Source: Micromonospora sp. Llam0 (GTDB taxonomy: Bacteria; Actinomycetota; Actinomycetes; Mycobacteriales; Micromonosporaceae). From it: 64,000 nucleotides of DNA. Position numbers and translations under genes: made by a program. Below, in pieces: positions 7,271 to 49,390 of the stretch (positions are counted from its first letter, which is position 1; every line of letters begins with the position of its first letter). Where the stretch lies: the NCBI RefSeq assembly GCF_003751085.1, contig NZ_RJJY01000002.1, positions 1,922,001-1,986,000 on the forward strand. Direction: 5' to 3'. The notes beneath the pieces are model-generated. The model was not told where the DNA came from, did not search any database, and saw only the letters and a list, made by a program, of their open reading frames with translations.

Positions 7271-8152
7271 TCAGTCCTCGTCTCCGTCGCCCGGCTCCCC
7301 GGTCGGCTCGGCCGCCCCGGTCGGGTCAGCCGGACCCGTCGGCTCGGTGTTGGTCGCGGCGATCACCAGCAGGATCTCGGTGCCGGGCGGCACCTCCGTC
7401 CCGGCCGGCGGGTCGGTCTCGAGCACCGTGCCGGCCGGCTGGTCCGAGCCGCGCTGTTCCAGCCGGTAGACCAGGTCGCGCTCGTCGAGCTCGGCACGGG
7501 CGTCCGCCAGCGGCAGCCCGGTCAGCGTCGGTACGACCACCAGCGGCGCCTCACTGGTCTGCTCCTCGGTCGGCTCCGGCTGCTCCTCGGTTGGCTCGGG
7601 CTGCTCCGTCTCCGGCTGCGAGGTCGGCACGGTCGCGGTCGGCGCCGCCGTCGGCGTCGGCCCGCCCGGATCCGTGGAGTCGTCCAGCGTGCTGGCCCAC
7701 CAGATCAACAGGCCGACCAACGCGACCAGCAGCAGCACCAGAACACCGATCAGGATCGGCAGCCACCACGGCCGGCCGCCGCCGGCCGTACCGCCCGGTC
7801 CCGGCCAGTCGCCGGTGCCGCCGCCACCCGCCGCCGGACGCACCGGTACCCCGGCCCGGCCGGACCACGCCGGCTCCCGGGCGCCACCGGCGGCGGAACC
7901 CGCCGGAAGGTCGGGCGCGGTCGAGCCCGGGTGCCCGCCCTGGTCGGCGACCGTCGCGCCGGGGTCGCCACCCGGCGGGCCGGGCCGACCGGGCGACTGG
8001 TCGGACCCACCGGTCGGCTCGCCGGCCTGGTCACCTGGCCCACCGGCCCTGGTCGCCCAGGGGTCGACCGGCCGGGGCAGCTGGCTGGTGTAGTCCCCGG
8101 CGTCACGCCCTGCCGAGCCGTCCTCCGCGGGATCCCTCGGTCTGTCGGCCAT
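7271..8152 (-). CDS. PASTA-domain single-pass membrane protein
   Basis: A 293-residue protein: a Pro/Gly-rich cytoplasmic N-terminus (1-128), one membrane helix at about 129-154 (WWLPILIGVLVLLLVALVGL), a Thr/Pro/Glu-rich linker with repeated EQPEPTEEQ, and one PASTA domain at about 205-268 (VVVPTLTGLPLADARAEL, VLETDPPAGTEVPPGTEI). PASTA domains bind peptidoglycan fragments or beta-lactams in PknB-type kinases; here the kinase domain is absent. ATG 8152 is chosen because GAGAGGA precedes it by 6-7 bp. Likely a wall-sensing or anchoring protein, but no partner is next to it. Confidence 0.8.
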   Translation of the reverse strand: MADRPRDPAEDGSAGRDAGDYTSQLPRPVDPWATRAGGPGDQAGEPTGGSDQSPGRPGPPGGDPGATVADQGGHPGSTAPDLPAGSAAGGAREPAWSGRAGVPVRPAAGGGGTGDWPGPGGTAGGGRPWWLPILIGVLVLLLVALVGLLIWWASTLDDSTDPGGPTPTAAPTATVPTSQPETEQPEPTEEQPEPTEEQTSEAPLVVVPTLTGLPLADARAELDERDLVYRLEQRGSDQPAGTVLETDPPAGTEVPPGTEILLVIAATNTEPTGPADPTGAAEPTGEPGDGDED

Positions 8153-24569: not shown

Positions 24570-24861
24570 CACATACCCCCCGGGCAGGATCACCTCAGCC
24601 GCGCCGTACACACTGCACTCCCATGCCTGGGCCACCCTCCCCGGTGTGGACCTGCCGTTGTCCGACCCCTGCTGACATAGACGTCGTGTGTGCGACGATC
24701 GGTGACATGGGCGGGAAAGTCCCGGACGTTCGCCAACTGGTCATCAGCTGTTAGCCTTTCGACAGGGCCCCCTTCCCCTACCCGACGGATGATGTCGGAC
24801 CGACGGTTGACCCCCGCCGCCGGACCGACGCACCGACGTACGTGGAAGGCGCGCTGCACGG

Positions 24862-26013
24862 ATGGCACTGCTGAGCTTGATCATCCCGGTGTTCCGGGTC
24901 GAGAAGTACCTCGCAGCGTGCCTCGACTCGGTCCTGACGCAGCATCGGGCGGACGTGGAGATCGTGGCGGTGGACGACGCCTCCGATGACGGGTCCAGCG
25001 CCATTCTGGCCAGCTACGCACAGCGACACCCCGAGATCACCGTGGTCACCCTGGACCGAAACAGCGGGCTGGGTGCCGCCCGCAACGCGGGTATCGCCCA
25101 CGCCAGCGGTCGCTACGTATGGTGTGTGGACAGCGACGACTGGTTGCCGGACGGCTCGCTGGCCGCGGTCGCCGACCGGCTCGACCGCACCGACCCGGAC
25201 ATGTTGATCACCGGATACTCCCGGGTCTATCCCGACGGCCGGGCGGAAGAACATCCGGTCACCGGCATCGCGCCGGGCCGCCAACTTCCGGAGGTCTTCC
25301 GCTTCGCCGACGAGCCAGGGCTACTCGACGTGCTGTGGATCGCCTGCAACAAGATCATCAAGCGGGACCGGCTGGTCGACACCGGGATCACCTTCCGATC
25401 CGGCTGGTACGAAGACGTCTCGTTCGTAATCCCGCTGCTGGTCGCCGTGGACCGGATCGCCGTGCTGGATCGCGACTGCTACGCGTACCGGCAGCATCAC
25501 GACGGCGCGATCACCCGGACGGTCAGCGACCGGCACTTCGAGGTCTTCGACCAGTGGCAGCGGGTCTTCACCTACCTCGACGCCCACCCCGGCCGGGCCG
25601 CCGCCCTGCGCCCGTTGATCTTCGGTCGGATGATCTGGCACTGCCTGCAGGTGCTCGGGCACCCGCACCGGGTCCCCAGGTCCCACCGGCGGCGCTACTT
25701 CCGGCGCGCCTACGAGCTCTACCACCGGCATAGGCCGGTCGGCGGGTACCCGGTGCCGGGCAACGGCAACGAGACGGTCAAGCATCGCCTCGTCGCGGCG
25801 AACGCCTATTCTCTCTATCAGACGTTGATGGCCGTCTGGTCACTGCGCAAGCGGTTGCCCAACCGGGCCGGCCGGGCAACCGGCCCCGCTGGAGCCAGTG
25901 GGCGGCCGGTCGCTGCCGGTCGGACACCGCCGCCAGCGGCGGCACCGCCCGGCACCGTACCCGCCCGGGGTGGTGCGGTCGACGACGAAGCCGAGGAGGG
26001 GGCGATCAGGTGA
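24862..26013 (+). CDS. Family-2 glycosyltransferase
   Basis: A 383-residue GT-A glycosyltransferase: LLSLIIPVFRVEKYLAACLDSV, VEIVAVDDASDDGSSAILASYA, NSGLGAARNAGIAHASG, and CVDSDDWLPDGSL as the metal site. YEDVSFVIPLLVAVDRIAV and YAYRQHHDGAIT mark the acceptor side, as in CDP-glycerol or teichoic acid-type GT2 enzymes. The C-terminal 50 residues are disordered, rich in Pro/Ala/Gly. No strong Shine-Dalgarno lies near ATG 24862. The stop overlaps the next GTG by 4 bp, so the two glycosyltransferases are co-translated. Confidence 0.87.
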   Translation: MALLSLIIPVFRVEKYLAACLDSVLTQHRADVEIVAVDDASDDGSSAILASYAQRHPEITVVTLDRNSGLGAARNAGIAHASGRYVWCVDSDDWLPDGSLAAVADRLDRTDPDMLITGYSRVYPDGRAEEHPVTGIAPGRQLPEVFRFADEPGLLDVLWIACNKIIKRDRLVDTGITFRSGWYEDVSFVIPLLVAVDRIAVLDRDCYAYRQHHDGAITRTVSDRHFEVFDQWQRVFTYLDAHPGRAAALRPLIFGRMIWHCLQVLGHPHRVPRSHRRRYFRRAYELYHRHRPVGGYPVPGNGNETVKHRLVAANAYSLYQTLMAVWSLRKRLPNRAGRATGPAGASGRPVAAGRTPPPAAAPPGTVPARGGAVDDEAEEGAIR

Positions 26014-27971
26014 GGCGCGACGCCGGCTCCGACGCCTCCGCGCCGGCCGGCAGCCGGGTCACCTGGCGCCTCACCGGGCTACCGGCGCCCCACCCCGCCG
26101 AACGGCTCGGCCGCGCGGTGGGGTTGCGGGTGCTGCGGCTACCTGGCACCCGTCGGGCATTGGTGATCGCCGGCACCGTGGACCGGCTACGCGACCTGCC
26201 CCACCACCCGTCGGCCGGTCAGCCGGTACGCGCCGCCACCGTGGTCGTCGTCTGGTGGCGGTACCCGGGGCTCGGCTGGTCCGGCAACGTCGGCACGTTG
26301 CCGCAGCTGCGCCGGCACCGGGTCGGGCTGCCCAGGCTGCGCCGAGGCGCGGCCACCGTCCGGCTGGCGCTCGCCGCCCCGGTGCCGCTTCGGTCGGCGG
26401 TACGGGCGGCGCTGCGCGCGTTGGACGGGTCTCGGCCGATGCCGTCCCCCGGCACCGCCGAGGTCACCGCCCTCGGTGCCCCGCCGGCATACCTGCCGGC
26501 GGGGGCGACCGTACTGACCGCCGGAACGCTGCCGGAGCGCGACGAGATCCGCGCCCACGACCTGGTGCTGGACGGCCGGGATGCCGCCGGCCCGCAGGGC
26601 GGGCGCGACGCGGCGTACGGTGTCCGGTTGGCCGGCACCGGGCACGCGGTCACCACGCCCGCTGGCGAGCGGCTCGTGCTGATCGACGCCGAGCGGATCA
26701 ATCCGCGTGGCCGGCTGGCGGCCGCGTACCGGCCGGAGGCGGCAGAGATCTCCCTGGAGTTCGCCCGCGGCGACCGGCCCCGGGCCAGGTTCCGCGGACC
26801 GGCCAGCGGGTCGACCCGATACGGGTCGCTGACCGGCCCCGGGCTGGACGCGGCGGCGCTGGCCGCGCTGCGGCAGGTCCGCGCGGTGCGCTGTCGGCTG
26901 GTGCCCGGTGAACATCCCGAGCAGACCGCCGGGCTGCTGGTGCAGCTCGCCGCGACCGGTGTGCTCGTGCACGCCCCGGTCCTGCCGCCGGCCGTGGCCG
27001 ACCTGCTCGACCCGCAGCTACGCATGCTCGTCACCAGACCGCTGCCCGGATCAGCCGGATCAGCCAGGTCGGACGGGCCGGACGGGCCGGACGGGCCGTT
27101 GGCTGTCGAGGCGCGCAGCGTACGGCAGCGCCGGGCCGCGATGCGCGGCCACGCCGTAGCGCTGCGGCTGCCCGGCCTCGTCGGCGGCGGGCTGCCGGCA
27201 CTCGGCCAACCGCCGTCGGTCAGCGCTGTTCTGATCACCCGGCGGCCGGAGCTGGTCACCCCCGCGCTGGCCGCGATCATCGCGCAGACCTACCCGGAGA
27301 TGGAGATCATCCTGGGCCTGCACGGCATCGAGTTGCCGGAGTCGGCCCGCCGGGCGTTGTCCGACGCGGGCCGCCCGTTCGAGGTGCTGCACCTGCCGGA
27401 GTCGGTCGACTTCGGCGCCGGGCTCGCAGCGGCCACCCGACGCGCCCGCGGCACCCTGATCACCAAGTTCGACGACGACGACAGCTACGGCGTCGAACAC
27501 GTCTGGGACCTGATGCTGGCCCGGCACTACTCCGGGGCCACCCTGGTCGGCAAGGGTGCCGAGTTCGTCCACCTGGACGATCAGGGCGTCACCCTCCGCC
27601 GACGGTCCGGCATCCCGGAGGCGTACGGCGGAGTGGTCGCCGGTGGCACGATGCTGCTCGCCAAGAGCGATCTGGAGGCGGTCGGCGGCTGGCGCCCGGT
27701 GCCCCGCTCGGTCGACCTCGGGCTGATCGAGCGGCTCCGGGCGGAGGGCGCCACCATCTACCGCACCCATCCGCTCGGTTACCTCTACCATCGGCGGCCC
27801 ACCGGGCACACCTGGGATCCGGGCGAGGCGTACTTCGTGGACAGCGCGTACTCCCGCTGGGCCGGCGTCCCGCCGGAGGTGATGGGTGACGAGGTCACAC
27901 CACCATCGACGGCAGCGGCCAGCGGCGCAGCCGGTGCGGCAACCAGACCAGCCGGTCACCCACCTTCGTGA
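26010..27971 (+). CDS. Two-part protein with C-terminal family-2 glycosyltransferase domain
   Basis: A 653-residue protein. The first 400 residues are Arg/Ala-rich and match nothing I recognise. The C-terminal part is a degenerate GT-A domain: VSAVLITRRPELVTPALAAIIAQTYPEMEIILGLHG, then TLITKFDDDDSYGVEHVWDL with the metal-binding Asp cluster, and GGVVAGGTMLLAKSDLEAVGGWR. It is coupled to the upstream GT2 gene by a GTGA overlap. Its 3' end runs 77 bp into the convergent DUF5825 gene. It carries a short Gly-Pro-Asp repeat (DGPDGPDGP). Likely a glycan polymer enzyme. Confidence 0.8.
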   Translation: MRRDAGSDASAPAGSRVTWRLTGLPAPHPAERLGRAVGLRVLRLPGTRRALVIAGTVDRLRDLPHHPSAGQPVRAATVVVVWWRYPGLGWSGNVGTLPQLRRHRVGLPRLRRGAATVRLALAAPVPLRSAVRAALRALDGSRPMPSPGTAEVTALGAPPAYLPAGATVLTAGTLPERDEIRAHDLVLDGRDAAGPQGGRDAAYGVRLAGTGHAVTTPAGERLVLIDAERINPRGRLAAAYRPEAAEISLEFARGDRPRARFRGPASGSTRYGSLTGPGLDAAALAALRQVRAVRCRLVPGEHPEQTAGLLVQLAATGVLVHAPVLPPAVADLLDPQLRMLVTRPLPGSAGSARSDGPDGPDGPLAVEARSVRQRRAAMRGHAVALRLPGLVGGGLPALGQPPSVSAVLITRRPELVTPALAAIIAQTYPEMEIILGLHGIELPESARRALSDAGRPFEVLHLPESVDFGAGLAAATRRARGTLITKFDDDDSYGVEHVWDLMLARHYSGATLVGKGAEFVHLDDQGVTLRRRSGIPEAYGGVVAGGTMLLAKSDLEAVGGWRPVPRSVDLGLIERLRAEGATIYRTHPLGYLYHRRPTGHTWDPGEAYFVDSAYSRWAGVPPEVMGDEVTPPSTAAASGAAGAATRPAGHPPS

Positions 27972-28653
27972 CCAGCCCTTCTTCGCCGAACTCGCGGGCG
28001 ATGTCCAGGTCGACAGTGGTCATCTCGGCACCGTCGAGCAGTTGCTCCAGCACCGCCAGGTACGCCGGGTCGTCGATGGTGAGCAGGTTGAGCCGACCGG
28101 CCCGCCGGTCCCGGACCTGGACGAACCCGGGGCCACGCCGGTAGGTGCACTTGTCGAAGTAGAACGCGTCCCGCCAGGCGGCAGCCGCCACCGTCCCCGG
28201 ATCGGAATCAGGGTCGGAGCCGGCGGCATCAACGGAGCCGGCAGATCCAACGGAACCCGCCCTGCCAACGGAACCCGCCGCGCCGGCGATCTCGACCGTC
28301 GCTGGCGGACGCAGATGCCCGTACACCCGCCACAGGTCGCCGTCGCCGCCCGGCAGCCGTATCGACCAGTCCACCTCGATGGCGTAGCTGGTCAGTTCGC
28401 GGACCAGGACGAGCCGGCGGACCGCGTCGGCCGCCGCCACCGAGTCGGCGGCGGTGAGATCGACGGTGCCGGGCAGCGCCACCTTGCGTACCCCTCGGTC
28501 CAGCCAGTCCGCGACGGTGTCGGCGGCGGACCCGGTGAACTCGACCGTGCCCAGGTCGATGCCGGGAATGTCGGCGACCGCCGGATCGTGGTCCCGGTGC
28601 AGCCGGACCACGACCGGCCCGGTCGGCGGTGCCTCGATGTCGGTGCTGATCAA
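27895..28653 (-). CDS. DUF5825 protein of the RiPP cluster
   Basis: A 252-residue protein that I recognise as DUF5825, a family seen beside peptide-maturing radical SAM methyltransferases in actinomycetes; its job is unknown. Visible features: VVVRLHRDHDPAVADIPGIDLG at the start, RLVLVRELTSYAIEVDWSIRLP in the middle, a low-complexity Gly/Ser/Ala insert (AGSVGRAGSVGSAGSVDAAG) at about 132-155, and FYFDKCTYRRGPGFVQVRDRR. The C-terminal half may bind substrate. It begins 13 bp after the radical SAM stop on the same strand and overlaps the convergent glycosyltransferase gene by 77 bp. A scaffold or accessory role in methylation is inferred from position. Confidence 0.75.
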   Translation of the reverse strand: MISTDIEAPPTGPVVVRLHRDHDPAVADIPGIDLGTVEFTGSAADTVADWLDRGVRKVALPGTVDLTAADSVAAADAVRRLVLVRELTSYAIEVDWSIRLPGGDGDLWRVYGHLRPPATVEIAGAAGSVGRAGSVGSAGSVDAAGSDPDSDPGTVAAAAWRDAFYFDKCTYRRGPGFVQVRDRRAGRLNLLTIDDPAYLAVLEQLLDGAEMTTVDLDIAREFGEEGLVTKVGDRLVWLPHRLRRWPLPSMVV

Positions 28654-28666
28654 CGCGGTGCTCCTG

Positions 28667-30619
28667 TCAGACGGCGGTGAGCGCGGGCTCGGGCGTGGGG
28701 TGCCCGGCGGACGTGGCCGGGTCCGCCGACGCGGCTTCCGCCTGCGCGGCGGCCCGCTCCTGGTGCAGGTGGTCGATGCGGAGCAGGTCCTGGTTCATCG
28801 CCTGCGGGGCGATCTGGATGAACTGATCGGCGTCGCTGAACAGCAGGCCCAGGTCGCTCCAGCGGGCGAGCAGTGTGGCCACCGCCTCCTCCGACGCGGA
28901 GATCCGCCGGGCCAGTGAGGCGACGCTGTGCGGCTGGTCCAGCTGCCGGAAGGCGGCGATCTCGGTCGGATCCGTCAACCGCAGCACATGCCAGTCGAAC
29001 TGCCGCCGCTCGCTGACCAGCACGATCTCGGTGCCGAGGTCGTGGTGGGTCAACCGGCTGCGGGCATACTCGTGCTGCCAGCCGGTGACGGCCCGGTCGA
29101 GCGTCTCGGCGAGATCCTCGTCGATGCCCTGGGTCGGGGTGTCGAAGATGTACGCCAGGTCCATCAGCTCCGACTCGGGCAGGTCGTAGATGAGCCGGTA
29201 CTGGGCGGCCGGCCGCAGGTCGGTGAAGCCGAGTTCCGGCTTGACGAAGTACGGGCTGAACCGTTCGATGGCGATCCGGGTGCTGCCGTCGGGTGGGCAG
29301 AGGTGGTGCAGGGCCGGCATCTGGTCGATGATCGACTGGTAGTCGGCGTCGGTCTCGCCGGGGAAGCCGTACAGGTAGTTCCAGGCGATGGTGATGCCGC
29401 TGGTCTCCGCGTCGCGCAGCATCCGCACGTTGAGGCAGCCGGTCACCCCCTTGTCCATGATCTTCAGCACCCGGCTGTTCAGGTTCTCGATGCCCGGCTG
29501 GACGCTGACCAGGCCGGCGTCGGCCAGCGCCTGCACCTGCGGGCCGCGCATGTTCGACTTGATCTCGTACTGCAGCCGCAGGTCGTAGTCGGATTCGGCC
29601 AGCCGGGGCAGCAGCGAGTTGACGTAGCTCATGTCGAGGATGTTGTCGACGACGAACATGTCCAGCACCTGGTGGCGCTCGACCAGCCCGATGATCTCGT
29701 CGTAGAACCGGCCGGGATGCTTGCTGCGGAACTGCATGAACGACCCGTTGAGCCCGCAGAAGGTGCAGTGGTGCTTCTCGCCCCACCAGCAGCCGCGGGC
29801 ACCTTCCACCACCAGTCGGGGCTCGACCCAGTGGTTCGCCTTGGAGGCGGCCAGCCGCTCGAAGTAGCCGGTGTAGTCCGGGCTGACGATCTGCGCCGGC
29901 GGCAGTGGTGCGGTGCTCATCGGGTTGGCCACGTGCCGGCCGTCCGGGGTGGCCCAGCACAGGCCCTCGATGCTGGAGAAGTCGGCATGGCTGTCCGCCG
30001 GTGCGGCCTCCAGCGCGGCGAGCAGCTGGGGGAACGCCGCTTCGCCTTCGCCGCGTACCACGAAGTCGATGAAGGAGAAGTTGCGGTGCAGCGCCGCGCC
30101 CTGCTCGCCGTCGCAGTTCGCCCCGCCGAGGGCGGTGCGGATCCGGGGGTCGAGTTTCTTGACCGCCCGGGCGGTCGCCAGCGCTGCGGTGTTCTGCTGG
30201 AACGTCGAGGTGAATCCGACGAGGTCGGGTGCCCGGTCGACGATGCGGGCGGCGATCTCGTCGATGAACTCCGGCGCGGACCGGTGCAGGTCCACGTTGC
30301 GGCTCAGGTCCCGCTCGGACATCTGGCCCTGCACCCGGCTGCTGAACTCGCTGACCCGCCACTCAGGGTCATCGTAGAGGGCGGAGGAGAAGACCCAGTC
30401 ACCGCAGCCGGAGAAGTAGGTGAACAGCGAATAGTAGTAGTAGTCACCAAGGCCGAACTCGCGCCGGTCGACCACCCAGTCGACGAAATCGAGGTTGGCG
30501 TGCATCACCTCGACCTCGGCGTCCGGCATCTTCTGGCGGACGCTGTTGGTGAGGATGCCCAGTGCCAGCGACGGGACATCGATCGATGACCACGGCATGT
30601 TGACCAGCAGGATCCGCAT
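28667..30619 (-). CDS. B12-type radical SAM C-methyltransferase, RiPP maturation protein 1 family
   Basis: A 650-residue enzyme. Residues 1-200 resemble a cobalamin-binding domain (MRILLVNMPWSSIDVPSLAL, DLVGFTSTFQQN, ALGGANCDGEQGAAL). The radical SAM cluster motif lies in GARGCWWGEKHHCTFCGLNG, with Cys277, Cys285 and Cys288 (C-x7-C-x2-C, the spacing of this family rather than the usual C-x3-C). Further segments: MFVVDNILDMSYVN, YEIKSNM, VSVQPGIENLNSRVLKIMDKG, WNYLYGFPGETDADY. The family methylates unactivated carbons of ribosomal peptides, as in bottromycin. The C-terminal 100 residues look like a wHTH-type domain. ATG 30619 follows GGAAGGG by 4 bp. Upstream lies the precursor peptide gene. 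Confidence 0.92.
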   Translation of the reverse strand: MRILLVNMPWSSIDVPSLALGILTNSVRQKMPDAEVEVMHANLDFVDWVVDRREFGLGDYYYYSLFTYFSGCGDWVFSSALYDDPEWRVSEFSSRVQGQMSERDLSRNVDLHRSAPEFIDEIAARIVDRAPDLVGFTSTFQQNTAALATARAVKKLDPRIRTALGGANCDGEQGAALHRNFSFIDFVVRGEGEAAFPQLLAALEAAPADSHADFSSIEGLCWATPDGRHVANPMSTAPLPPAQIVSPDYTGYFERLAASKANHWVEPRLVVEGARGCWWGEKHHCTFCGLNGSFMQFRSKHPGRFYDEIIGLVERHQVLDMFVVDNILDMSYVNSLLPRLAESDYDLRLQYEIKSNMRGPQVQALADAGLVSVQPGIENLNSRVLKIMDKGVTGCLNVRMLRDAETSGITIAWNYLYGFPGETDADYQSIIDQMPALHHLCPPDGSTRIAIERFSPYFVKPELGFTDLRPAAQYRLIYDLPESELMDLAYIFDTPTQGIDEDLAETLDRAVTGWQHEYARSRLTHHDLGTEIVLVSERRQFDWHVLRLTDPTEIAAFRQLDQPHSVASLARRISASEEAVATLLARWSDLGLLFSDADQFIQIAPQAMNQDLLRIDHLHQERAAAQAEAASADPATSAGHPTPEPALTAV

Positions 30620-30696
30620 GTGCCCTTCCCTTCTATGCGAGCCACGACCGACGAACCCGGTCAGCGCGGATGTCGGAGGTGGACAAGAATTGCCGG

Positions 30697-30789
30697 TAGA
30701 ACGGAGGCGGTCGGGACCGTTGGGATGAAGGCGGTCAGCACCGACCGGTGGGATGGTGACGGTCTGCGACGATGGGATGGAGGCGGTCA
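30697..30789. repeat. Four degenerate 17-bp repeats between precursor and radical SAM genes
   Basis: Copies on the plus strand at 30697-30713, 30721-30737, 30749-30765 and 30773-30789. The last and the second are TGGGATGGAGGCGGTCA and TGGGATGAAGGCGGTCA. Spacing is 24, 28 and 24 bp. They lie in the untranslated 222 bp between the two genes. Role unknown: protein or RNA-binding sites, or spacer expansion. Confidence 0.65.
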
Positions 30790-30803
30790 GGCGATGCCGG
30801 CCA

Positions 30804-30818
30804 GGGCGCGACCCGCCC
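30804..30818 (-). terminator. Short GC hairpin after the precursor gene, possible attenuator
   Basis: On the transcript GGGCG and CGCCC pair around a GGTCG loop, 23 bases past the precursor stop. The stem is only 5 bp, so it may at most reduce read-through from the precursor into the radical SAM gene. RiPP operons often make more precursor than enzyme by such elements. Confidence 0.3.
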
Positions 30819-30841
30819 GCCTCCACCCCGTACGACCCAGA

Positions 30842-30943
30842 TCAGAACTTGATCTTGACCGATACCGTGACCGTGATGTTCGCGCTGCGAAGCTGGTCGC
30901 GGTTGCCGTTGATCGGGTCGTTCTCGACAACGTTCTTCCGCAT
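30842..30943 (-). CDS. RiPP precursor peptide (33 residues)
   Basis: A short gene between the S9 peptidase and the radical SAM methyltransferase genes. It starts at ATG 30943, eight bases after a perfect AGGAGG, and stops at TGA 30844-30842. The leader half is polar and charged (MRKNVVENDP) with a single Pro at residue 10; the C-terminal half is ANITVTVSVKIKF, in which Val/Ile/Phe alternate strictly with Thr/Ser/Lys and the peptide ends on Phe. Beta-branched Val and Ile, and Phe, are the residues methylated by the bottromycin enzymes of the same radical SAM class. There is no Cys, so lanthionine or thioether rings are excluded. Position, start signal and tail make it the likely substrate; direct proof is lacking. 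Confidence 0.85.
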   Translation of the reverse strand: MRKNVVENDPINGNRDQLRSANITVTVSVKIKF

Positions 30944-30951
30944 GCCGTTCA

Positions 30952-30957
30952 CCTCCT
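30952..30957 (-). promoter_or_regulatory. Perfect Shine-Dalgarno of the precursor gene
   Basis: On the minus strand AGGAGG lies 8 bases before ATG 30943. It is the strongest ribosome site in the cluster and decides the start of this very short gene. Confidence 0.85.
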
Positions 30958-30998
30958 CTCCCGATCGGACCGAACCTGCCAACGTGCGGGGAACAGGG

Positions 30999-32861
30999 TC
31001 AGGCCACTGGCCGCGCCATGGCGAGCGCGACCGCCGTACCCTCCTCCTGCACGCCGTCGAAGTGCCGCTGCATGAACAGCAGCACGGTCTGCATCAGCGA
31101 CAGATGGCTGCGGGCGTCGAAGTCGTCGTGCCCGGCCCGGCGGCGGACCAGCTGATGCGGAACGCGGCGGGCGGCCAGCAGACCGGCGTACCGCTCCACC
31201 GGGGCCGGCGGGCAACGCACGTCGTCGCTGGAGACGGCGAGCAGCACCGGCGCGGTCACCTGGTCGACGTAGCTGGCCGGCGACGACCGGGCGTACGTTT
31301 CGGGAACCTGGTCCGGGGTGCCGCCGAACAGCATCACGTCGAGCGCCTGGACCGCCGGGGACGCCGCATGGAACGCGGCGGCGTAGTCGGCGATCGGGCT
31401 GATCGCCACCCCGAGACGCCACAGCTGGGGCTGCACACCGAGGGCGAGCAGGGTCAGGTAGCCACCCCACGAGGTGCCCCACAGGGCGACCCGTCCCGCC
31501 TCGATCAGCCCTTCGGTCACCAGATGCTCGCGGACCGCCGCCAGATCGGCGACCTGGGTCAGCCCGACGCCGGAGCTGAAGTCGTTACGCCAGGCGGAGC
31601 CGTAGCCGCTGGACCCCCGGTAGTTGACCCGCACCACCGCGCAGCCGGTGCTGGTCAGAATCTCCACCAGCGGGTCGTACGCGTCCCGTGCGTGCTGCGA
31701 CGGTCCGCCGTGGACCAGGAACACGGCGGGACGGGTACGCCGGTCGTCGTTCGGTGTCGTCAGCAGCACGTGGATCGGCCCGCCCGGCCCCGGCACCCAC
31801 AGCTCCTGCCGCTGGTAATCGTCGACCGTGGCGGACGCCGCCGGGTCCGGGCCGCCGCTGTCCGGCAGCCGGACGTCGCGGCCCGACCGCAGCTGCGGCG
31901 GGGTGAGCGAGTCGGTCCAGATGTAGACGACGTCGCCGTCCGGCCAGACCGCCGCGTCCAGCACGCTGCCCGGCGGGTTCGGCAGCACCGCGCTGGCCCG
32001 CACCGTCAGGTCGGCCTCGTGCAGGATGGTATGGGCGTGCCGGTCCTGACGGATCAGGATCCGCCGGCCGTCCGGGTACCAGCTCGCGGTGATCTCGGTG
32101 TCGAACCAGCACCAGCTGTGCGGCTGCAGACCGTCGGCCCGGGTCCAGGTCGCCGGGAAGTACCGGTCGTCCTGCTCCAGCACGAGCAGCAGCCGGGGTT
32201 CACCGCCGCTGGGGGCGAAGCCGAGCGCCCAGACCCGCCGATCCGGCCGGCCGGGCACCACCCCGACGCTGGCCCCGTCGCGGCCGACCACGGTCACGGC
32301 GTCGGCGTCGGCCGGGTCGGTGCCGACCGCAGCCAGCTCACCGGTCGGATCCAGGTCGACCAGGTACGCGTACCCGGCGGTCCGGGTGAGCTCGGTGATC
32401 CGCCCGTGCGGGTCGCGCCGGTGCAGGGTCAGGCCGTCGTCGTCGGCGAGCCCGACCAGGGCGGTGCCGTCGTCGGCCATCGCGATCCCGGCGTGCCGCG
32501 CCGGCGGCACCCCGGGCAGCGCCGGAGCCGAGACCGACCCCGAGGCTGAGGCGGACCCTCCGGTAGCCGAAGCCGGTGGCTCGGCCTGGTCGGTGGTGCC
32601 GGTCGGAAAGTCGCGGGTACGCCAGACACCCACCCCGGCGAGGTCGTCGTCGAACCACCACACCGTCTCGCCGTCCGGGTCCAACGCGGCCCGGATCGTT
32701 CCGGTCGCCCGGTCGGTGAGCTGGGTGACCGTGTCCGTTCGGCGGTCCCAGGCCAGGATCTGGCATCGGCCGTCGGCGTCGCCGACGTAGACCACCCGGT
32801 GCGGCGCGTGCTCGGCGACCACCGGAAGCGCCGGATAGAACAGTCGGTATTCACGGCTCAT
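30999..32861 (-). CDS. S9-family (prolyl oligopeptidase-like) peptidase of the RiPP cluster
   Basis: A 620-residue cytoplasmic S9 peptidase. The N-terminal 370 residues are a beta-propeller of blades such as RFCQILAWDRRTDTVTQ-like segments; the C-terminal alpha/beta hydrolase has the nucleophile Ser464 in LWGTSWGGYLTLLAL, an Asp in AVSSDDVRCPP (546/547) and His578 in RAGHDDF. ATG 32861 overlaps the MFS stop by 4 bp; the frame extends further upstream only as an antisense-like shadow inside the MFS gene. S9 enzymes serve as leader peptidases in some lanthipeptide clusters; Pro10 of the precursor is a possible cut site. The precursor gene begins 55 bp after its stop. Confidence 0.88.
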   Translation of the reverse strand: MSREYRLFYPALPVVAEHAPHRVVYVGDADGRCQILAWDRRTDTVTQLTDRATGTIRAALDPDGETVWWFDDDLAGVGVWRTRDFPTGTTDQAEPPASATGGSASASGSVSAPALPGVPPARHAGIAMADDGTALVGLADDDGLTLHRRDPHGRITELTRTAGYAYLVDLDPTGELAAVGTDPADADAVTVVGRDGASVGVVPGRPDRRVWALGFAPSGGEPRLLLVLEQDDRYFPATWTRADGLQPHSWCWFDTEITASWYPDGRRILIRQDRHAHTILHEADLTVRASAVLPNPPGSVLDAAVWPDGDVVYIWTDSLTPPQLRSGRDVRLPDSGGPDPAASATVDDYQRQELWVPGPGGPIHVLLTTPNDDRRTRPAVFLVHGGPSQHARDAYDPLVEILTSTGCAVVRVNYRGSSGYGSAWRNDFSSGVGLTQVADLAAVREHLVTEGLIEAGRVALWGTSWGGYLTLLALGVQPQLWRLGVAISPIADYAAAFHAASPAVQALDVMLFGGTPDQVPETYARSSPASYVDQVTAPVLLAVSSDDVRCPPAPVERYAGLLAARRVPHQLVRRRAGHDDFDARSHLSLMQTVLLFMQRHFDGVQEEGTAVALAMARPVA

Positions 32862-34189
32862 CGGCGTGCCTCCTCTGCCACGGGTTCGGTCGGCGTCGCC
32901 TCGGACTCCGTCGCTGTCGCGCCGGGTTCGGTCGTCATCGCGTCGTCTGGTGGGTCTTCCGCCCCGGCGCGCAGTTGGCGCAGGTTGACGGTGGTGTAGA
33001 CGGCCAGCCCGGCCAGTGCGGCGGCGAAAATCAACGCGACGGCGGTCGGGCTGTACCAGGCGACGAGCAGGCCGGCGAGCAGCGGCGCCGGGGTCTGCAG
33101 CACCTCGCCGGCGGTGCCCATCACGGTGCCGACCCGGCCCTGCAGCTCGTCCGGCGTCAACGCGATGACCCGCGACTGGAAGATGACCCCGAGCAACGGG
33201 CTGAGCAGGAAGACCAGGCCGAAGAGCAGGCCGTACGTCCAGGTCTGCCGGGCCTGCGACATGGCCGCGACCAAGGCGACCATCGCCCAGGAGGCCACGA
33301 CGATCACGGTCATCGGCCGGACCCGGCTGAACACGGCGGGAGCCAGCAGCGCGCCGGTCAACCCGCCGACGCTGGCCACCGTCAGCACCAGGCCGATCGA
33401 CGCTGCGGCCGCGCCCTGCTGCCCGGCGGTCAGAATCGCGTAGTAGATGAGCGCGCCGAAGGTAAAATTGATCCCGGCGGCCCAGATGGTCACGAATCGT
33501 AGAAACGGCTGCCGCCACACGAAGCGCAGGCCGTCCCGCAGATCGGTGAGGAACGACGTGCGTTCGGCACGGTCCGGGGTGAGATCGGTGCGGATCGCGC
33601 TGACCAGGAAAGCGGACACCACATATGACACGGCGTCCACCAGGAATGGCACCCACCGGCCTATCTGGTAGAGCGCGCCGCCGAAAACCGGACCGACGAT
33701 CTGTACGGCGTGATTGCGCGCCTCCAGCCGGGACAGCGCCTTCTTGTCGTCGGCCGGCAGCACCCGACGAATCGAGCCCGCGCCGGCCGCCTCGTAGCCG
33801 CTCTGGGCGAGCCCTTCGACGAAGGCGGCGGCAGCGAGCACCACCAGGGTCGCCGTACCGCTGGCGACCGAAACGAAGAGCACCGCCATCGTGGCGGCGG
33901 CCAGCAGCAGTGACGCCACCATCATCCGCTTACGGGGCAACCGATCGGCCAGTACGCCGGCCGCCGGCGCGGCGACGAGTCGACCGGCCAAGGCCAGCGC
34001 GCCCACCAGACCGGCGGCGGCCGGTGACCCGGTTATCGCGAGGGTGACCAGCGGAAAGACGATTCCGGAGGTCTGCGACCCGAGCTGATCGACGGCTCCG
34101 GCTATCCAGTACAGCCGGAAATCCCTCTTACGGTTTCCATCAGTCGGCGTTGAATCAGCGGTTGAGGCAGCGGTCATCACTTCGGCCAC
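32858..34189 (-). CDS. MFS transporter, probable RiPP exporter
   Basis: A 443-residue major facilitator protein with about twelve membrane helices. GVLADRLPRKRMMVASLLLA is the MFS loop 2-3 motif, and QLGSQTSGIVFPLVTLAITGSP the first helix, as in the MFS_3/enterobactin-exporter-like branch. The last 45 residues form a Thr/Glu/Pro-rich cytoplasmic tail. It is the first gene of the minus-strand RiPP set and overlaps the peptidase start (ATGA). Role inferred from position: export of, or immunity to, the finished peptide. ATG 34177, four residues in, is an alternative start. Confidence 0.87.
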   Translation of the reverse strand: MAEVMTAASTADSTPTDGNRKRDFRLYWIAGAVDQLGSQTSGIVFPLVTLAITGSPAAAGLVGALALAGRLVAAPAAGVLADRLPRKRMMVASLLLAAATMAVLFVSVASGTATLVVLAAAAFVEGLAQSGYEAAGAGSIRRVLPADDKKALSRLEARNHAVQIVGPVFGGALYQIGRWVPFLVDAVSYVVSAFLVSAIRTDLTPDRAERTSFLTDLRDGLRFVWRQPFLRFVTIWAAGINFTFGALIYYAILTAGQQGAAAASIGLVLTVASVGGLTGALLAPAVFSRVRPMTVIVVASWAMVALVAAMSQARQTWTYGLLFGLVFLLSPLLGVIFQSRVIALTPDELQGRVGTVMGTAGEVLQTPAPLLAGLLVAWYSPTAVALIFAAALAGLAVYTTVNLRQLRAGAEDPPDDAMTTEPGATATESEATPTEPVAEEARR

Positions 34190-36200: not shown

Positions 36201-36264
36201 CCTCGTCGGACGCAGGCCGTTCCCGCCCCGGTATGACCGCCCTGACGGCGGGTACTCCTCAGTC

Positions 36265-36996
36265 ATGGTAGGCACCTCGAATACCCTGTCGCGGTCCCGC
36301 GCCGTGGTGGCGAGGTCGGGTCGCAGCAAAGCAGTCGTGCGGCCGGCTGGGTATGCCGATCTGGCGGCGACGGCCCGTACGCATGTGGAGTTCCTGCCGG
36401 TCGGGCTGTTTCCGTCGCTCGGGGCAGGCTTCGTTCGTCGCTGGCACCGCACCTACCTCGACCCCCGGCACGGCGTCGGCTACGTGGTCACCGACCGGAC
36501 GACATCCGACGACGACGTTGTCGGATTCCTGCTGGGCACCACCGACCAGGCCGCCCACATGGCGACGCTGTTCGCCGATCGGCGGGCGCTGGCCTCACTG
36601 TCAGCCTCCGGTGCTGGTACGTTGATCCGCCGCCCACGACTGGCTCGTCAGCTGGCTTCCCGCGCTCTGCCGTGGGCACGGCAGATCGCGCAGCGCCGGT
36701 CCGGCCAGCCAGCCCCAGCGGATGGGCCGGGCGAGAATCCGCAGGTCGCGGTGATGGTCGCAGTGGCGGTGCAACCGCAGTGGCGGGGCAGCGGAATCGG
36801 GGCGGAACTCGTCCGCCGGTTCGTCGAGGATGCCCGGCGCGCCGGAGCAGCGGAGGCCGAGCTGGTCACCCCGGTCGGGTCGGCCGGGGCGACGGGCTTC
36901 TATGAAAGGCTCGGCTGGGAGCTCGGACCGTGCTGGCATACCCGCGACGGTGACCAGCTTCAGGCGTACCGTCAGCGCCTCGGTGCCGGCAACTGA
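36265..36996 (+). CDS. GNAT-family N-acetyltransferase
   Basis: A 243-residue acetyltransferase. The acetyl-CoA binding region is VAVMVAVAVQPQWRGSGIGAELVRRF (about 160-190; the loop reads QWRGSGIG), followed by AELVTPVGSAGATGFYERLGWEL. The N-terminal 35 residues are basic and probably not part of the fold. A 45-residue insert rich in Ala, Arg and Ser (about 105-150) separates the two halves. The gene follows the EEP gene by 64 bp on the same strand. Substrate unknown. Confidence 0.85.
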   Translation: MVGTSNTLSRSRAVVARSGRSKAVVRPAGYADLAATARTHVEFLPVGLFPSLGAGFVRRWHRTYLDPRHGVGYVVTDRTTSDDDVVGFLLGTTDQAAHMATLFADRRALASLSASGAGTLIRRPRLARQLASRALPWARQIAQRRSGQPAPADGPGENPQVAVMVAVAVQPQWRGSGIGAELVRRFVEDARRAGAAEAELVTPVGSAGATGFYERLGWELGPCWHTRDGDQLQAYRQRLGAGN

Positions 36997-37057
36997 TCAG
37001 CCGCCGGCCGGTTGCCAGGCGGTCAGCAGGTCAGCGGGCTGGTAGAGCACGTCGAGC

Positions 37058-43525: not shown

Positions 43526-43920
43526 CCGTCTATCTCGACGTCGAAGACCTGCTGGAGATCGGCTCGATCGTCTTCGGTACGCCAGCCAAGGTCCGCGACT
43601 ACGGGCTGCTCGCCTCCGCCGCCGCCCGACCGAGCACGATCGTCTTCGGGCAGGAGGCCTACCCCGACCTCGCGGGCAAAGCGGCCAGCCTGCTGCACTC
43701 GATCTGCGGCAACCACGCACTCGTCGACGGCAACAAACGCCTTGCCTGGGCCGCCGCGCTGGTCTTCATCAACATCAACACCGGTGCGACGATCCCGGAC
43801 GTCGACGTCGACCGCGCTGAGGCGTTCATGCTCGCAGTCGCCGACGGCAGCCTGCACGAGGTCGACGCGATCGCAGCGGAGCTGCGACGGCTCGGGGTCC
43901 TCGATGAACTCAGCTCGTGA
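43522..43920 (+). CDS. doc: Fic/Doc-family toxin
   Basis: A 132-residue Doc-type protein. The active loop HALVDGNKR (65-73) matches the Fic motif with His, Asp, Asn, Lys and Arg in place; Doc toxins use it to phosphorylate EF-Tu and Fic proteins to AMPylate targets. The first helix segment LEIGSIVFGTPAKVRDYGLLASAAARP is typical of Doc. It is coupled to the ribbon-helix-helix antitoxin by a GTGA overlap. Its last 11 bp overlap the convergent trypsin-NACHT-WD40 gene. Confidence 0.87.
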   Translation: MTVYLDVEDLLEIGSIVFGTPAKVRDYGLLASAAARPSTIVFGQEAYPDLAGKAASLLHSICGNHALVDGNKRLAWAAALVFININTGATIPDVDVDRAEAFMLAVADGSLHEVDAIAAELRRLGVLDELSS

Positions 43921-46900
43921 TCGTGAGCGCCAGCAGGCCCTGGTCCAGCCCGATCAGTAGCGTGTCGTCGACAGTGCAGCAGGCCAGCGCTGGATGGAGC
44001 ACGGGGATCGTGCGTACCGCGCGAGCGGTCGGTGGGTCCCAGACCCGGACGGTGCGGTCGTGGCTGGTCGAGGCGAGCAGGTCACGCCCACCCACCCGGA
44101 CCAGGCTCAGCCCGGTCACCGGCCCCGTGTGCCCGGTCAGCCAGTGGATCGGCTGCCCCCGCTCGGCGTCCCACAACCGGATCGTGTGGTCCGCGCTGGC
44201 CGATGCCAGCGCCGGACGGTCGGCGACCACGAGCCCGCAGAGTGCGTTCACCGCGTCCTGATGCCCCTGCTGCGTCCAGAGCTGCGTGCCGTCGGTGTCC
44301 CAGAGCATGATGGTGCCGCTCTTGTCTGCGGAGGCGAGCAGCTCGCCGGCAGGCCCGGCGACCGTGGCCAGCGTCGTCACCCAGGCCAGGGTCACGTGCC
44401 CGAGTAACACCCCGCGCACGTCGCCCGAGTACGGACGCCACAGCCGGACAGTCTGGTCGTCGCCGGCAGAGGCCACCAACAGCTCCGCGTCGTGCTGCAC
44501 CGGGCAGACGGCGGCGACGCGCTCGTAGTGGCCGTTCATCTCCCCCTGTAGTGTCCCGTCCCGCGCGTCCCACAGCTTGACGGCTCGATCATCGCCAGCG
44601 GTCAGGATGCGCGGTTCCTCCTCGTCGGGTACGACACACAGCGCATTGACCGGGCCGTCCGACGCCCGGAACTCGCGCAGTTGGGCACCGGTGACCGCAT
44701 CCCAGATCCGTACCTGCCCGTCCAATCCGGCGGATGCGACCAGCCGGCCCTCGGCGCCCGGCACCGGGCACACTGCGGTCACCGCCCCGATCCGGTCGCG
44801 CTCGGCGACCGCCCCAGGCGGTCCGCCGCCCGGGTCCCACAGCCGAACGGTGCCGTCGTCGCCGGCGGTGGCGAGCATCCGGTTCTTCGCCGTCGGCAGC
44901 TCGCAGACCGCTCGGATCCAGCTGGCATGCCCACGCAAGCTCGGTCGGGGAATCCAGGTCTGCTGCGGGGCGCCGGTCGGCACCTCCCACATCCGGATCA
45001 GCCCGTCCTCACCGGTCGTTACCAGCAGGCAGCCATCATTGGTGTCAACTGTGCACAGATCAGTCAGCGGACCCCCGGTTTGCAGGACCTGGACGCATGC
45101 CCCGGTCAGTGGATCCCAGATCCGCACTGTGCCGTCGTAGCCGGCCGAGGCGAGCAGCGTACGGCCGGGGGTACGAACGGCGTACAGGGTGTTGACCCAG
45201 CCGAGGTGGCCGGTGAGGACGCCGATCGGTTCGCCGGTTGCCGGGTCCCACAGCCGCACCGTGCCGTCGTAGCCGGTGGAGGCGAGCAACTGTCGGTCCC
45301 CGACGGGCACGTGGGTCACCGCCGTCACCCAACCGGTGTGACTGCTCAGCACATGGCATGGTCTGCCGGTGGCCGGATCCCACAACCGCACCGTCCGGTC
45401 GTCACCGGCGGAGGCGAGCAGGTCGCCGTCGGGCATTGGGATCGCGCAGATGTTGCGTACCCAGTCGCCGTGGCCACGCAGTTCGTGCCGGCGGTGCCCG
45501 GCACGTGGATCCCACAGTCCGATGGTGCCGTCGTGACTCGCCGTGGCGAGCAGCACCTCGCCTGTAGCGAGACGCACCGCGCACACCCCGTGGATCGTGT
45601 CGTCGTGGCCGGTGAAGGTCTGCTCGGCCTGGTTGGTCAGCGGGTCCCAGAGCCGCACAGTGCCGTCGTCGCCGGCCGAGGCGAGCAGCCGACGCCCGTC
45701 GATGACGATCGCCGCGACGTCGTAGACGGCCTGCGAGTGTCCGTCGAGGATGCTGCGTTCCTGCCGGGGCGGGGTGTGCGCCCAGCCTGCCCGGTACGGG
45801 GCGGCCGCCGCCGTGATCCCGTTGTCCAGGCCATCGAGCCGGTCGACGACGGAGAACAACGCGGCCCGCTCAGCCGGCGCGGCTGCCACCGCCAGCGGGG
45901 TCCGTTGCAGGAGCCGGGCGCGGGCAACCGCGAGCGGCGTCTGGGCCGCGTCCGCCACCGTGAGTAACCGGTCCAGGTGGGCATGCAGCAGATAGTCGTT
46001 GTCGGTGAGTAGGTCGTCGACGGCGCCGGCGCGGGACGCGTGCTGCGGTAGCGACCGCAGCAGGTAGTCGGGAGCCGTGGCCCATCCGGTGGCTCGCGCG
46101 GCGGCGGTCCAGCTCGCGAGCAGCCGGGCGTGGTCGTCACGCCGCGCCGCCTGCGCGTCCCGATCGGCCAGCAGCGCGTCGTTGAGCGCCTGGTGGAACA
46201 GCCGGTACACGGGCTGAGCGCCGCCGCCGGTCTCGACGAGGAAGTTCGCCGCCGAGGTTCGCGCGAAGTCGGCGAGTTCCGGTTCGGTGACCGCCCCGCC
46301 GAGGGCTTCGATCGCGGTCTGCCACAACGGCAGCGGCAGTCCTGGCGTCTCGGCGTACGCCAGGGCGGTCAACGCCAGCCGGGCCGATGTCCGGCCGGCG
46401 GTCGGCAGCCCGGCCAGGTAGGTGTCCAGGGCGTGCGCCACGGTAGCGGTGAACGACACCTCGTCCGGGTCGATCGCGATGTTGTCGCGCAGTGCGTGAG
46501 CGCGGGCGACCAGGCCAGCGACCAGAAAGTTTCCCTTGGCGAGAGCGGCGATGCGGCGGGCGAGCGGCGCGGCGACGGCCGGATCGGCGTACGGGTTTCC
46601 TGGTCGTTCGGCGCCGATCAGTTGCAGCGTCGCCTGGGCGTAGTCGGCCAGGTCGGATTCGGCGAAGTACTCGGGCGCGTCCAGGTCGACGAGTTCCGCG
46701 TTACCGCCGAAGCGGCTGATCAGGTCACCGTGGTCGTCAGAACGCCGGGTGCCGATCACGATCCGCAGACCCCGAGGGCCACAGTCACGGGCCAGGGGCA
46801 TCAGGATGTCGTCGATGACCATGCGCGCCTGCGCCGGGTCGGTCGCCTCGTCGAGGGCGTCGAGGACCAGGGTGAACCTGGTCCGCCGGTGGTTCAGCTG

Positions 46901-47974
46901 ATCGCGCACCGCAGGCATCAGATCAGCCGGTACGCCGGGCAGCTCGACGGCGACGGCACGGGCGATCTCGGCGGCGACTTCGAGGGCTGTCTTGCCCTTG
47001 ACATGCACCGCGCAGGAGACCGCACCGACCGGAGCTCGGACGGCCACGTCGGTGTCGGCCAGCTCCCCGCTGATCTGCTGGTCGGCGGTGGTGACGATCC
47101 GCCCGAGTACGGCCGACTTGCCGACCCCCGGCGACCCGGTGACGATCAACGGCCGGCTGACCGGTTCGGCGCTGTCGATCCAGTCGACGATGCGGTGCAG
47201 AGCGGCGGCCCGGCCGCGGAACCGCGCGCCGCCTTCGGTGTCGACCGCGACCCCACGCGCCCTGGGCAGCCAGTGCCGGCCAGCCTCGCCGTCGGTGGCC
47301 AGGGCCCATCCCCAGGCGGCGAGGGCGGCGTCGTCCGCGTCGGCGGCCCGCCAGGCGGACAAGGTCGCCAGCTTCATGTCCGGTAGTTGCTGGTCGGCGT
47401 AGTGCAGGGTCACGGCCTGACCGCCGCCCTGGGCATCGGCGGTGACGACGACGCCGACCACCGCCTGGTACTCGGATGACCAGACCGCACCGCCGCTGAA
47501 CCCTTTGCTCAGCTGGGTGGCCGGCGAGGTGTGGATCATGACGCGGCCCCACCCACCGGGCTGGCCGACACTACCTTCGGCATGGCAGCCGCCGACCACG
47601 TACGTCGGGAATCCGTACGTCCAGTATGGAGTTCCAGCCAGTGGCTTGGCGGGCAGACAACGAAGTCGGGCCGGAGTCACCGAGGCCGGCACCGGCTCCA
47701 CGAGTTCAAGCATTACCAGGTCGACCTTGGCGTCCCGCATCCCGTCGTGCGGGCAGCCGCCGATCCGGCGGCGGTCGAACCAGGTGACCTTCTCGGCCAG
47801 TGGAAACGAGATCCAGAGGTCGTCGTGCAGCTGCCCGTCGTTGCCGAACACGACATGGTGGCAGGTCAGCACCAGGTTGCTCTCCACAACGATGCCGGTG
47901 CCGACGGGGGTGTCCTGTTGCTGCCCGCGGTGCAGGGCGACCAGCCAGGAGCAGTCGTCGGGTCCTGCGGTCAC
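43910..47974 (-). CDS. Trypsin-like protease/NACHT-type STAND ATPase/WD40 fusion (NLR-like)
   Basis: A 1354-residue cytoplasmic protein in three parts. Residues 1-210: trypsin-like peptidase with His40 (LTCHHVV), Asp85 (KVDLVML) and Ser160 (KGFSGGAVW), all intact. Residues about 250-700: STAND/NACHT ATPase with Walker A GSPGVGKS (280-287) and Walker B LVLDALDE (369-376). From about 740: about 14 WD40 repeats, each with a DGTVRLWD-type end, enough for two seven-blade propellers. This is the layout of bacterial NLR-like conflict proteins: propellers sense, NACHT oligomerises, protease acts. A small trypsin-co-occurring partner gene precedes it by 17 bp. The target is unknown. Confidence 0.9.
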   Translation of the reverse strand: MTAGPDDCSWLVALHRGQQQDTPVGTGIVVESNLVLTCHHVVFGNDGQLHDDLWISFPLAEKVTWFDRRRIGGCPHDGMRDAKVDLVMLELVEPVPASVTPARLRCLPAKPLAGTPYWTYGFPTYVVGGCHAEGSVGQPGGWGRVMIHTSPATQLSKGFSGGAVWSSEYQAVVGVVVTADAQGGGQAVTLHYADQQLPDMKLATLSAWRAADADDAALAAWGWALATDGEAGRHWLPRARGVAVDTEGGARFRGRAAALHRIVDWIDSAEPVSRPLIVTGSPGVGKSAVLGRIVTTADQQISGELADTDVAVRAPVGAVSCAVHVKGKTALEVAAEIARAVAVELPGVPADLMPAVRDQLNHRRTRFTLVLDALDEATDPAQARMVIDDILMPLARDCGPRGLRIVIGTRRSDDHGDLISRFGGNAELVDLDAPEYFAESDLADYAQATLQLIGAERPGNPYADPAVAAPLARRIAALAKGNFLVAGLVARAHALRDNIAIDPDEVSFTATVAHALDTYLAGLPTAGRTSARLALTALAYAETPGLPLPLWQTAIEALGGAVTEPELADFARTSAANFLVETGGGAQPVYRLFHQALNDALLADRDAQAARRDDHARLLASWTAAARATGWATAPDYLLRSLPQHASRAGAVDDLLTDNDYLLHAHLDRLLTVADAAQTPLAVARARLLQRTPLAVAAAPAERAALFSVVDRLDGLDNGITAAAAPYRAGWAHTPPRQERSILDGHSQAVYDVAAIVIDGRRLLASAGDDGTVRLWDPLTNQAEQTFTGHDDTIHGVCAVRLATGEVLLATASHDGTIGLWDPRAGHRRHELRGHGDWVRNICAIPMPDGDLLASAGDDRTVRLWDPATGRPCHVLSSHTGWVTAVTHVPVGDRQLLASTGYDGTVRLWDPATGEPIGVLTGHLGWVNTLYAVRTPGRTLLASAGYDGTVRIWDPLTGACVQVLQTGGPLTDLCTVDTNDGCLLVTTGEDGLIRMWEVPTGAPQQTWIPRPSLRGHASWIRAVCELPTAKNRMLATAGDDGTVRLWDPGGGPPGAVAERDRIGAVTAVCPVPGAEGRLVASAGLDGQVRIWDAVTGAQLREFRASDGPVNALCVVPDEEEPRILTAGDDRAVKLWDARDGTLQGEMNGHYERVAAVCPVQHDAELLVASAGDDQTVRLWRPYSGDVRGVLLGHVTLAWVTTLATVAGPAGELLASADKSGTIMLWDTDGTQLWTQQGHQDAVNALCGLVVADRPALASASADHTIRLWDAERGQPIHWLTGHTGPVTGLSLVRVGGRDLLASTSHDRTVRVWDPPTARAVRTIPVLHPALACCTVDDTLLIGLDQGLLALTITS

Positions 47975-48697: not shown

Positions 48698-49390
48698 ATG
48701 TCGGAGAAGGAACTCACCCTCGTCGAGCGGTGCGTACTCATCAACCTGATGGTCAAGGCCGCTCCGCTGCAGCAGAGCTACCTGATCAACGTCGCGGGCG
48801 TCACCGGGCTCAAGGCGACCCATCGCCGCACCCTGGAAACCCTTGGGCTGATCGAGGTGACGGAGAAGCCGATCACCCTGCACCTGACCGACAACGGGTG
48901 GCAGGCAGCCAAGGCGGAGTTGAGCAAGGACGAGCCACCGAAGGGTGCCGGCACCGCCGGTGCGACGCTCTACACGGTGCTCGACTTCGTTCGTCGGCTG
49001 ATCGACCACTCGGGCGTGCCCGCCGACGACCTGTTCCGGATGCAGTTCAAGCCCAACGAGATCGCTTCCACCATCGACCCGGCAGAGCCGGCCGCGACGA
49101 CGGCCAACGGCAGCGGAGCGAGCCAGGTCGACGTGGCCACGCGGATCCGGCGGGCGTACCAGGAGCTGATCGACCAGCCCGGCGACTACGTCATGCTGGC
49201 CGCGCTGCGGGCCGCGCTCGCCGATCTGTCTCGCGACGATCTCGACGCCGCGCTGATCAAGCTCAACCAGGACCCCGACGTGCAGATCGTGCCGGAATCC
49301 AACCAGAAGGTACTCAGAACGCAGGAGCGCGACGCCGCCGTCAGCATCGGCAATCAGCTCCGGCATCTGATTTCGATCTCGCCCTCATGA
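48698..49390 (+). CDS. Winged-helix protein, partner of the dual-ATPase protein
   Basis: A 230-residue protein. Residues 1-75 look like a winged helix (ELTLVERCVLINLMVKAAPL, SYLINVAGVTGLKATHRRTLETLGLIEVTEKPITLHLTDNGW). The C-terminal third (DVATRIRRAYQELIDQPGDYVMLAALRAALADLSRDDLDAALIKLNQDPDVQIVPESNQKVL) looks like a second wHTH. ATG 48698 follows GAGGAGC by 6-7 bp. The stop overlaps the next start (ATGA), so its product and the dual ATPase are made together, probably as one complex. No enzyme motif is visible. Confidence 0.7.
   Translation: MSEKELTLVERCVLINLMVKAAPLQQSYLINVAGVTGLKATHRRTLETLGLIEVTEKPITLHLTDNGWQAAKAELSKDEPPKGAGTAGATLYTVLDFVRRLIDHSGVPADDLFRMQFKPNEIASTIDPAEPAATTANGSGASQVDVATRIRRAYQELIDQPGDYVMLAALRAALADLSRDDLDAALIKLNQDPDVQIVPESNQKVLRTQERDAAVSIGNQLRHLISISPS

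Follow-up and report, generated by a model that had tools for sequence, protein, structure and literature searches.

An operon of five genes was identified in a stretch of 64,000 nucleotides of Micromonospora sp. Llam0 (contig NZ_RJJY01000002.1, positions 1,922,001 to 1,986,000; hereafter the window); its products probably make one small peptide, methylate and trim it, and export it. The operon is likely to be of the clavusporin type, a kind of ribosomally synthesized and post-translationally modified peptide (RiPP) system, in which the leader of the precursor would guide C-methylation, an S9 peptidase would cut near an arginine and a major facilitator superfamily (MFS) pump would export a surface-active peptide.

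The co-directional genes encode the MFS protein, the S9 peptidase, a small open reading frame (ORF), a B12-dependent radical S-adenosylmethionine (SAM) enzyme and a DUF5825 protein (Table 1). The MFS and S9 genes overlap by exactly 4 bp (ATGA), the small ORF, with the ribosome-binding site AGGAGGTGA, starts exactly 55 bp past the S9 stop codon, and the DUF5825 gene begins exactly 13 bp downstream of the radical SAM stop codon. An earlier note on this DNA had described the same layout; the overlap and the gaps that it gave are exact, and profile searches agree with it for the four larger proteins. The MFS protein matches PF07690 (111 bits, 6e-32) and PF05977 (3e-19), and an MFS gene lies in the corresponding place among relatives. 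The radical SAM enzyme scores 617 bits against TIGR03975 (cut-off 282) and contains the CX7CX2C motif (CWWGEKHHCTFC), which bears out its earlier assignment to the RiPP-maturation type. A 24-bp imperfect tandem repeat of 3.5 copies (30703-30790) lies between the small ORF and the radical SAM gene.

Table 1. Coordinates of the genes of the operon in the window and of a related cluster of the same genome
Feature	Sequence	Coordinates	Strand	Remarks
MFS exporter	window	32858-34189	-	GTG start (possibly the in-frame ATG at 34177); candidate pump for the mature peptide
S9 peptidase (acylaminoacyl-peptidase-like)	window	30999-32861	-	PF00326, 120 bits; candidate leader peptidase
Precursor peptide MRKNVVENDPINGNRDQLRSANITVTVSVKIKF, 33 aa	window	30842-30943	-	Leader 1-19, core about 20-22 to 33; conserved position and leader
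B12-dependent radical SAM enzyme	window	28667-30619	-	PF02310 and PF04055, TIGR03975; candidate C-methyltransferase
DUF5825 partner of the radical SAM enzyme	window	27895-28653	-	PF19142, 206 bits, 5e-61
Type II cluster (L004)	own genome, C1	4529-11904		S9, precursor MKRRSVRHDPI..., radical SAM, DUF5825, P450, MFS

A homologous pair of B12-dependent radical SAM and DUF5825 proteins has been characterised in clavusporin biosynthesis, where it C-methylates amino acids (PMC12257519), and the clavusporin leader is removed by the S9 enzyme MpcP (PMC12951456); the clavusporins were described by Zhang, Li, Overton and Seyedsayamdost (2025, Nat Chem Biol 21:1069, doi 10.1038/s41589-025-01882-8). The window contains the same pair and a homologue of this leader peptidase. 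The enzyme pair and the peptidase thus have a characterised product, so the claim of the earlier note that no product was known from this gene combination fails and the combination is not uncharacterised. Its proposal that one pathway makes, trims and exports the peptide is well supported by the conserved gene order and by the clavusporin system. Streptomyces clavuligerus, which the compound name suggests is the clavusporin producer, carries a syntenic operon on pSCL4. The encoded proteins show 61% (radical SAM), 43% (S9), 37% (MFS) and 36% (DUF5825) identity to those of the window, and a homologous small ORF, MQKDVIHNDPLAGDEENRKPSVGITITVPFRNAEDADED, is also present. S. clavuligerus and most of the other Streptomyces loci examined share the order MFS-S9-precursor-radical SAM-DUF5825 with the window, as well as an M(Q/R)K..(V/I)..NDP-like leader. 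The MQK-type precursors of Streptomyces are presumably the clavusporin precursors.

The 99 loci compared were the window itself, two further clusters from its genome, five loci on plasmids, 11 from family genomes and 80 named ones. The named loci are the best 80 of at least 547 confirmed in a scan of a genome collection, ranked by similarity to the radical SAM alignment. In 89 of the 99 loci a precursor was called, and the resulting 91 ORFs represent 73 distinct sequences. The (N/D)P leader motif formed part of the search pattern; distinct sequences were counted because several named loci are near-identical. For L096 and L103 the precursors were picked by eye; one ORF of L137 was discarded as spurious, one start in L023 was shortened and two-residue MT/MP starts were trimmed. 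The ten loci without a called precursor are L005, L024, L071, L094, L107, L127, L133, L138, L144 and L145, among which L094 and L107 are contig ends and L071 and L133 have 10 and 103 unknown bases upstream, respectively.

Its conservation marks the small ORF as a genuine precursor gene. In the window, a short ORF with an M(Q/R/E)K..(V/I)..(N/D)P leader lies directly before the radical SAM gene. Of the 80 named loci, 72 have a related ORF upstream of the radical SAM gene (two of the 72 chosen by eye), and the first 19 residues of the window precursor are identical in eight other loci (L025-L030, L066 and L067), which argues against a chance ORF. All five genes are present in one order and on one strand in 63 of the named loci, and the DUF5825 gene follows the radical SAM gene in 79. 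The earlier note had held that the absence of a conserved small ORF from related clusters would speak against a precursor, and the outcome favours the ORF. Five other genomes of the genus (L025-L028 and L030) have exactly the same leader, MRKNVVENDPINGNRDQLRS, whereas the core differs in four of them. Codons 1-20 are identical in DNA between the window and L027, L028 and L030, whose radical SAM genes have diverged from that of the window at about 25% of synonymous sites. No claim of synonymous constraint in the leader is made, because 8 to 29 of about 630 radical SAM stretches of 19 codons are equally silent and codon bias is probably strong; dN/dS is uninformative for an ORF this short.

The distinct precursors comprise 54 of the MQK/MEKD type (Streptomyces and Streptantibioticus), 11 of the MRK type, including that of the window, six of type II (KRRS) and two others. 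A proline after residue 10 and an acidic tail (follower) are each found in 52 of the 54 MQK/MEKD-type precursors and in none of the 11 MRK-type precursors, which end with the core. Unlike the Streptomyces type, the window precursor thus has neither an acidic follower nor a proline at the leader/core junction, after the arginine, or in the core, traits that are not known to be necessary for the clavusporin type. Its core carries a charge of +2 and runs to the stop codon in KIKF. Nine of the 11 MRK-type precursors show perfect alternation of hydrophobic and other residues across their final 12 positions (11 of 11 steps), the exceptions being L068 (9 of 11 steps, with an Ala) and L137 (3 of 11); only 39 of 20,000 shuffles of the window core reached full alternation.

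Other small ORFs were seen beside related enzymes. L023 contains two precursor variants (7566-7652, ..ALVTVGVSVSF, and 7833-7928, ..TVISVMVVVSF) before one radical SAM gene, with no S9 match nearby. In L151, a small ORF in which the unit YK(I/V) occurs five times lies upstream of the radical SAM gene, beside the DUF5825/radical SAM pair, and may be a multi-core precursor. The hallmark of proteusins is a long nitrile-hydratase-like leader; a proteusin of the polytheonamide type was considered for the window and rejected, the precursor being only 33 aa long and matching no Pfam or NCBIfam model in profile searches.

The catalytic triad of the S9 peptidase (S464, D547 and H578) is intact and is conserved in all 80 classified sequences. 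Residue D508 is invariant (81 of 81 sequences). In a profile comparison its counterpart in oligopeptidase B of E. coli is E576, the determinant of basic S1 specificity in that enzyme; the nearest solved relative, acylaminoacyl peptidase, has Ile at this position. Each of the 85 loci that have both an S9 gene and a called precursor shows an arginine at precursor positions 17-20, but none of the four S9-less loci with a precursor (L023, L076, L120 and L123) does, one L023 precursor having Arg at position 15. The association (Fisher p 4e-7 counting loci and 9e-7 counting distinct precursors) suggests that cleavage by the S9 enzyme may be Arg-directed. The pattern was seen post hoc, it involves only two independent changes (p 0.5 in a sign test), and the same scan also picked up Thr and Asp, with weaker signals; it is therefore treated as a lead only. 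No obvious replacement peptidase was seen in L023, L076 and L120, where long ORFs were inspected by eye only and without a family scan. The small ORFs seen in more distant DUF5825 loci are of other types and were kept out of the count.

Alternatively, the arginine may occupy P3, with the cut two residues further on, after Pro, Val, Ala or Ser. Either cut would give a product of 12-14 residues, and the computed masses (M) of the candidate unmodified products are 1505.8817 for SANITVTVSVKIKF, 1418.8497 for ANITVTVSVKIKF and 1347.8126 for NITVTVSVKIKF, with a step of 14.01565 for each methylation. S9 prolyl oligopeptidases generally cleave after proline, and Pro10 (N-D-P), the only proline of the window precursor, is kept in all 73 distinct precursors; a cut at this site, yielding a product of 23 residues, is nevertheless quite improbable beside the arginine pattern and D508.

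The reaction of the radical SAM enzyme and the role of the product were also weighed. A B12-dependent radical SAM enzyme joins ortho-tyrosines in the pbs pathway of a biphenomycin-like cluster, and DUF5825/B12-dependent radical SAM pairs adjoin multinuclear non-heme iron-dependent oxidative (MNIO) enzymes in YHxYxY biphenomycin-like clusters, as outlined in PMC12257519. These clusters share the pair with the window but contain an MNIO enzyme. A C-C cross-link or another such reaction in the window is highly improbable: its core has a single aromatic residue, the homologous radical SAM enzyme paired with DUF5825 methylates according to the same source, and the window enzyme lies well inside TIGR03975, described by NCBIfam as a C-methyltransferase family. 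L144, with an MNIO protein (PF05114) and a further radical SAM protein, looks like the biphenomycin-like kind, and no S9 gene was found at that locus.

Clavusporins are reportedly hydrophobic surfactant peptides that aid Streptomyces development. With the same maturation, the window product could instead be a membrane-active antimicrobial or a signal. Its core is cationic and amphipathic, unlike Streptomyces-type cores such as GITITVPF, and the MFS exporter would suit self-protection as well as export. This role is unlikely, however, as the closest characterised system is a surfactant, going by the title of the clavusporin paper. The charge of +2 after the arginine is also confined to the window's genus and G037; the remaining MRK-type cores have charges between +1 and -1 and mostly keep the alternation, so charge is not a conserved property.

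Under the preferred clavusporin-type reading, the MRKxV(V/I)xNDP leader of the 33-aa precursor would be bound, probably by the winged-helix part of the DUF5825 protein, and the precursor would be handed to the B12-dependent radical SAM enzyme, which would place methyl groups on unactivated carbons of the core, likely those of Val, Ile and Thr. The S9 peptidase would then cleave at Arg19 or no more than about two residues away from it and so free an amphipathic beta-strand of 12-14 residues, about NITVTVSVKIKF, to be exported by the MFS pump as a surface-active peptide. The predicted winged-helix domain at the C terminus of DUF5825 may resemble a RiPP recognition element (PqqD-like) and is the candidate leader binder. 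No solved relative of DUF5825 was found by sequence (best E 0.86), nor any Foldseek match below 0.001. DUF5825 was also considered as a possible truncated copy of the C-terminal half of the radical SAM enzyme, for which a profile comparison gave low probabilities of 1 to 10%, with a score of 27 (P 0.012), 31 with both reversed, and 24.1 for the best decoy. An 18-bp tandem repeat in the DUF5825 gene (28215-28254) encodes a Gly/Ser/Ala-rich insert, with a predicted local distance difference test score below 50 at residues 128-142.

In a tree of the radical SAM enzymes, a quick tree with long branches, the window falls in a set of 11 MRK-type rows that includes four named Micromonospora (SH-like approximate likelihood ratio test, SH-aLRT, 97) and lies outside a group of 73 Streptomyces rows (SH-aLRT 100). 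Three further MRK-type rows, two from Pseudonocardiaceae and one from S. xylophagus, branch separately, and the MRK label therefore requires two changes on this tree. Among 150 family genomes, 25 gave a DUF5825 match (24 of them above the cut-off), and among 394 class genomes 16 did (15 above it), the own genome included in both; none of 14 controls had one. The window-type S9 peptidase (at least 73% identity) is present in seven of the 150 family genomes, own included, and six of these are among the seven listed members of the genus. The seventh, G114, keeps both flanks and remnants of DUF5825, and no match to the MFS, S9 or radical SAM proteins was found within its 11-kb stretch (L165). About 230 bp separate the stretches of L165 that match window positions 24832-28087 and 36215-37022, the DUF5825 remnants are found at the joint, and G114 looks like a natural loss of the operon by an apparent deletion. 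In L029 (G037), the MFS match (2593-3824) is split over two frames near query residue 205, possibly by a frameshift or a sequencing error.

The type II cluster of the own genome shares the order S9-precursor-radical SAM-DUF5825 with the window, with identities of 57-58% (radical SAM), 40-42% (S9) and 37% (DUF5825), but it has another core, an additional cytochrome P450 and the MFS gene at the opposite end, downstream of DUF5825. A third radical SAM/DUF5825 cluster (L005, C1, 5832-10666) contains a 27-aa ORF, MTIKKVTIKTPAHGTCKYLVPTRKAEK, and a P450; its upstream ORF (5832-6764) matched no Pfam family. Small ORFs resembling the 27-aa ORF occur in L154, L156, L157 (two copies), L158 and L160.

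Beside the operon, a convergent plus-strand ORF (26010-27971), which has a glycosyltransferase match, shares 77 bp with the 3' end of the DUF5825 gene. Elsewhere in the window, genes for a large WD40-repeat protein (43910-47974, minus strand) and a large HerA/DUF87 AAA protein (48730-52755, plus strand) lie side by side.

The locus can now be assigned to a named RiPP class instead of an unknown cluster, of which it would form a divergent, follower-free branch, judging from sequence comparison. In the literature searched on DUF5825, clavusporins and related RiPPs, nothing was found on an MRK-type precursor, which the original clavusporin paper may cover. To our knowledge, Micromonosporaceae generally form no aerial hyphae, and on the tentative reading that follows the role of the peptide would therefore differ from the developmental role reported for the clavusporins. 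Tentatively, the MRK-type loci may constitute a separate, Micromonosporaceae-centred branch of the clavusporin family, with a follower-free, cationic, perfectly amphipathic and multiply C-methylated beta-strand, Arg-directed release by the S9 enzyme and a non-developmental role. If the peptide is confirmed, the same methylating pair would serve a cationic amphipathic strand besides the Streptomyces cores, which would be useful for the engineering of stable beta-strand surfactants.
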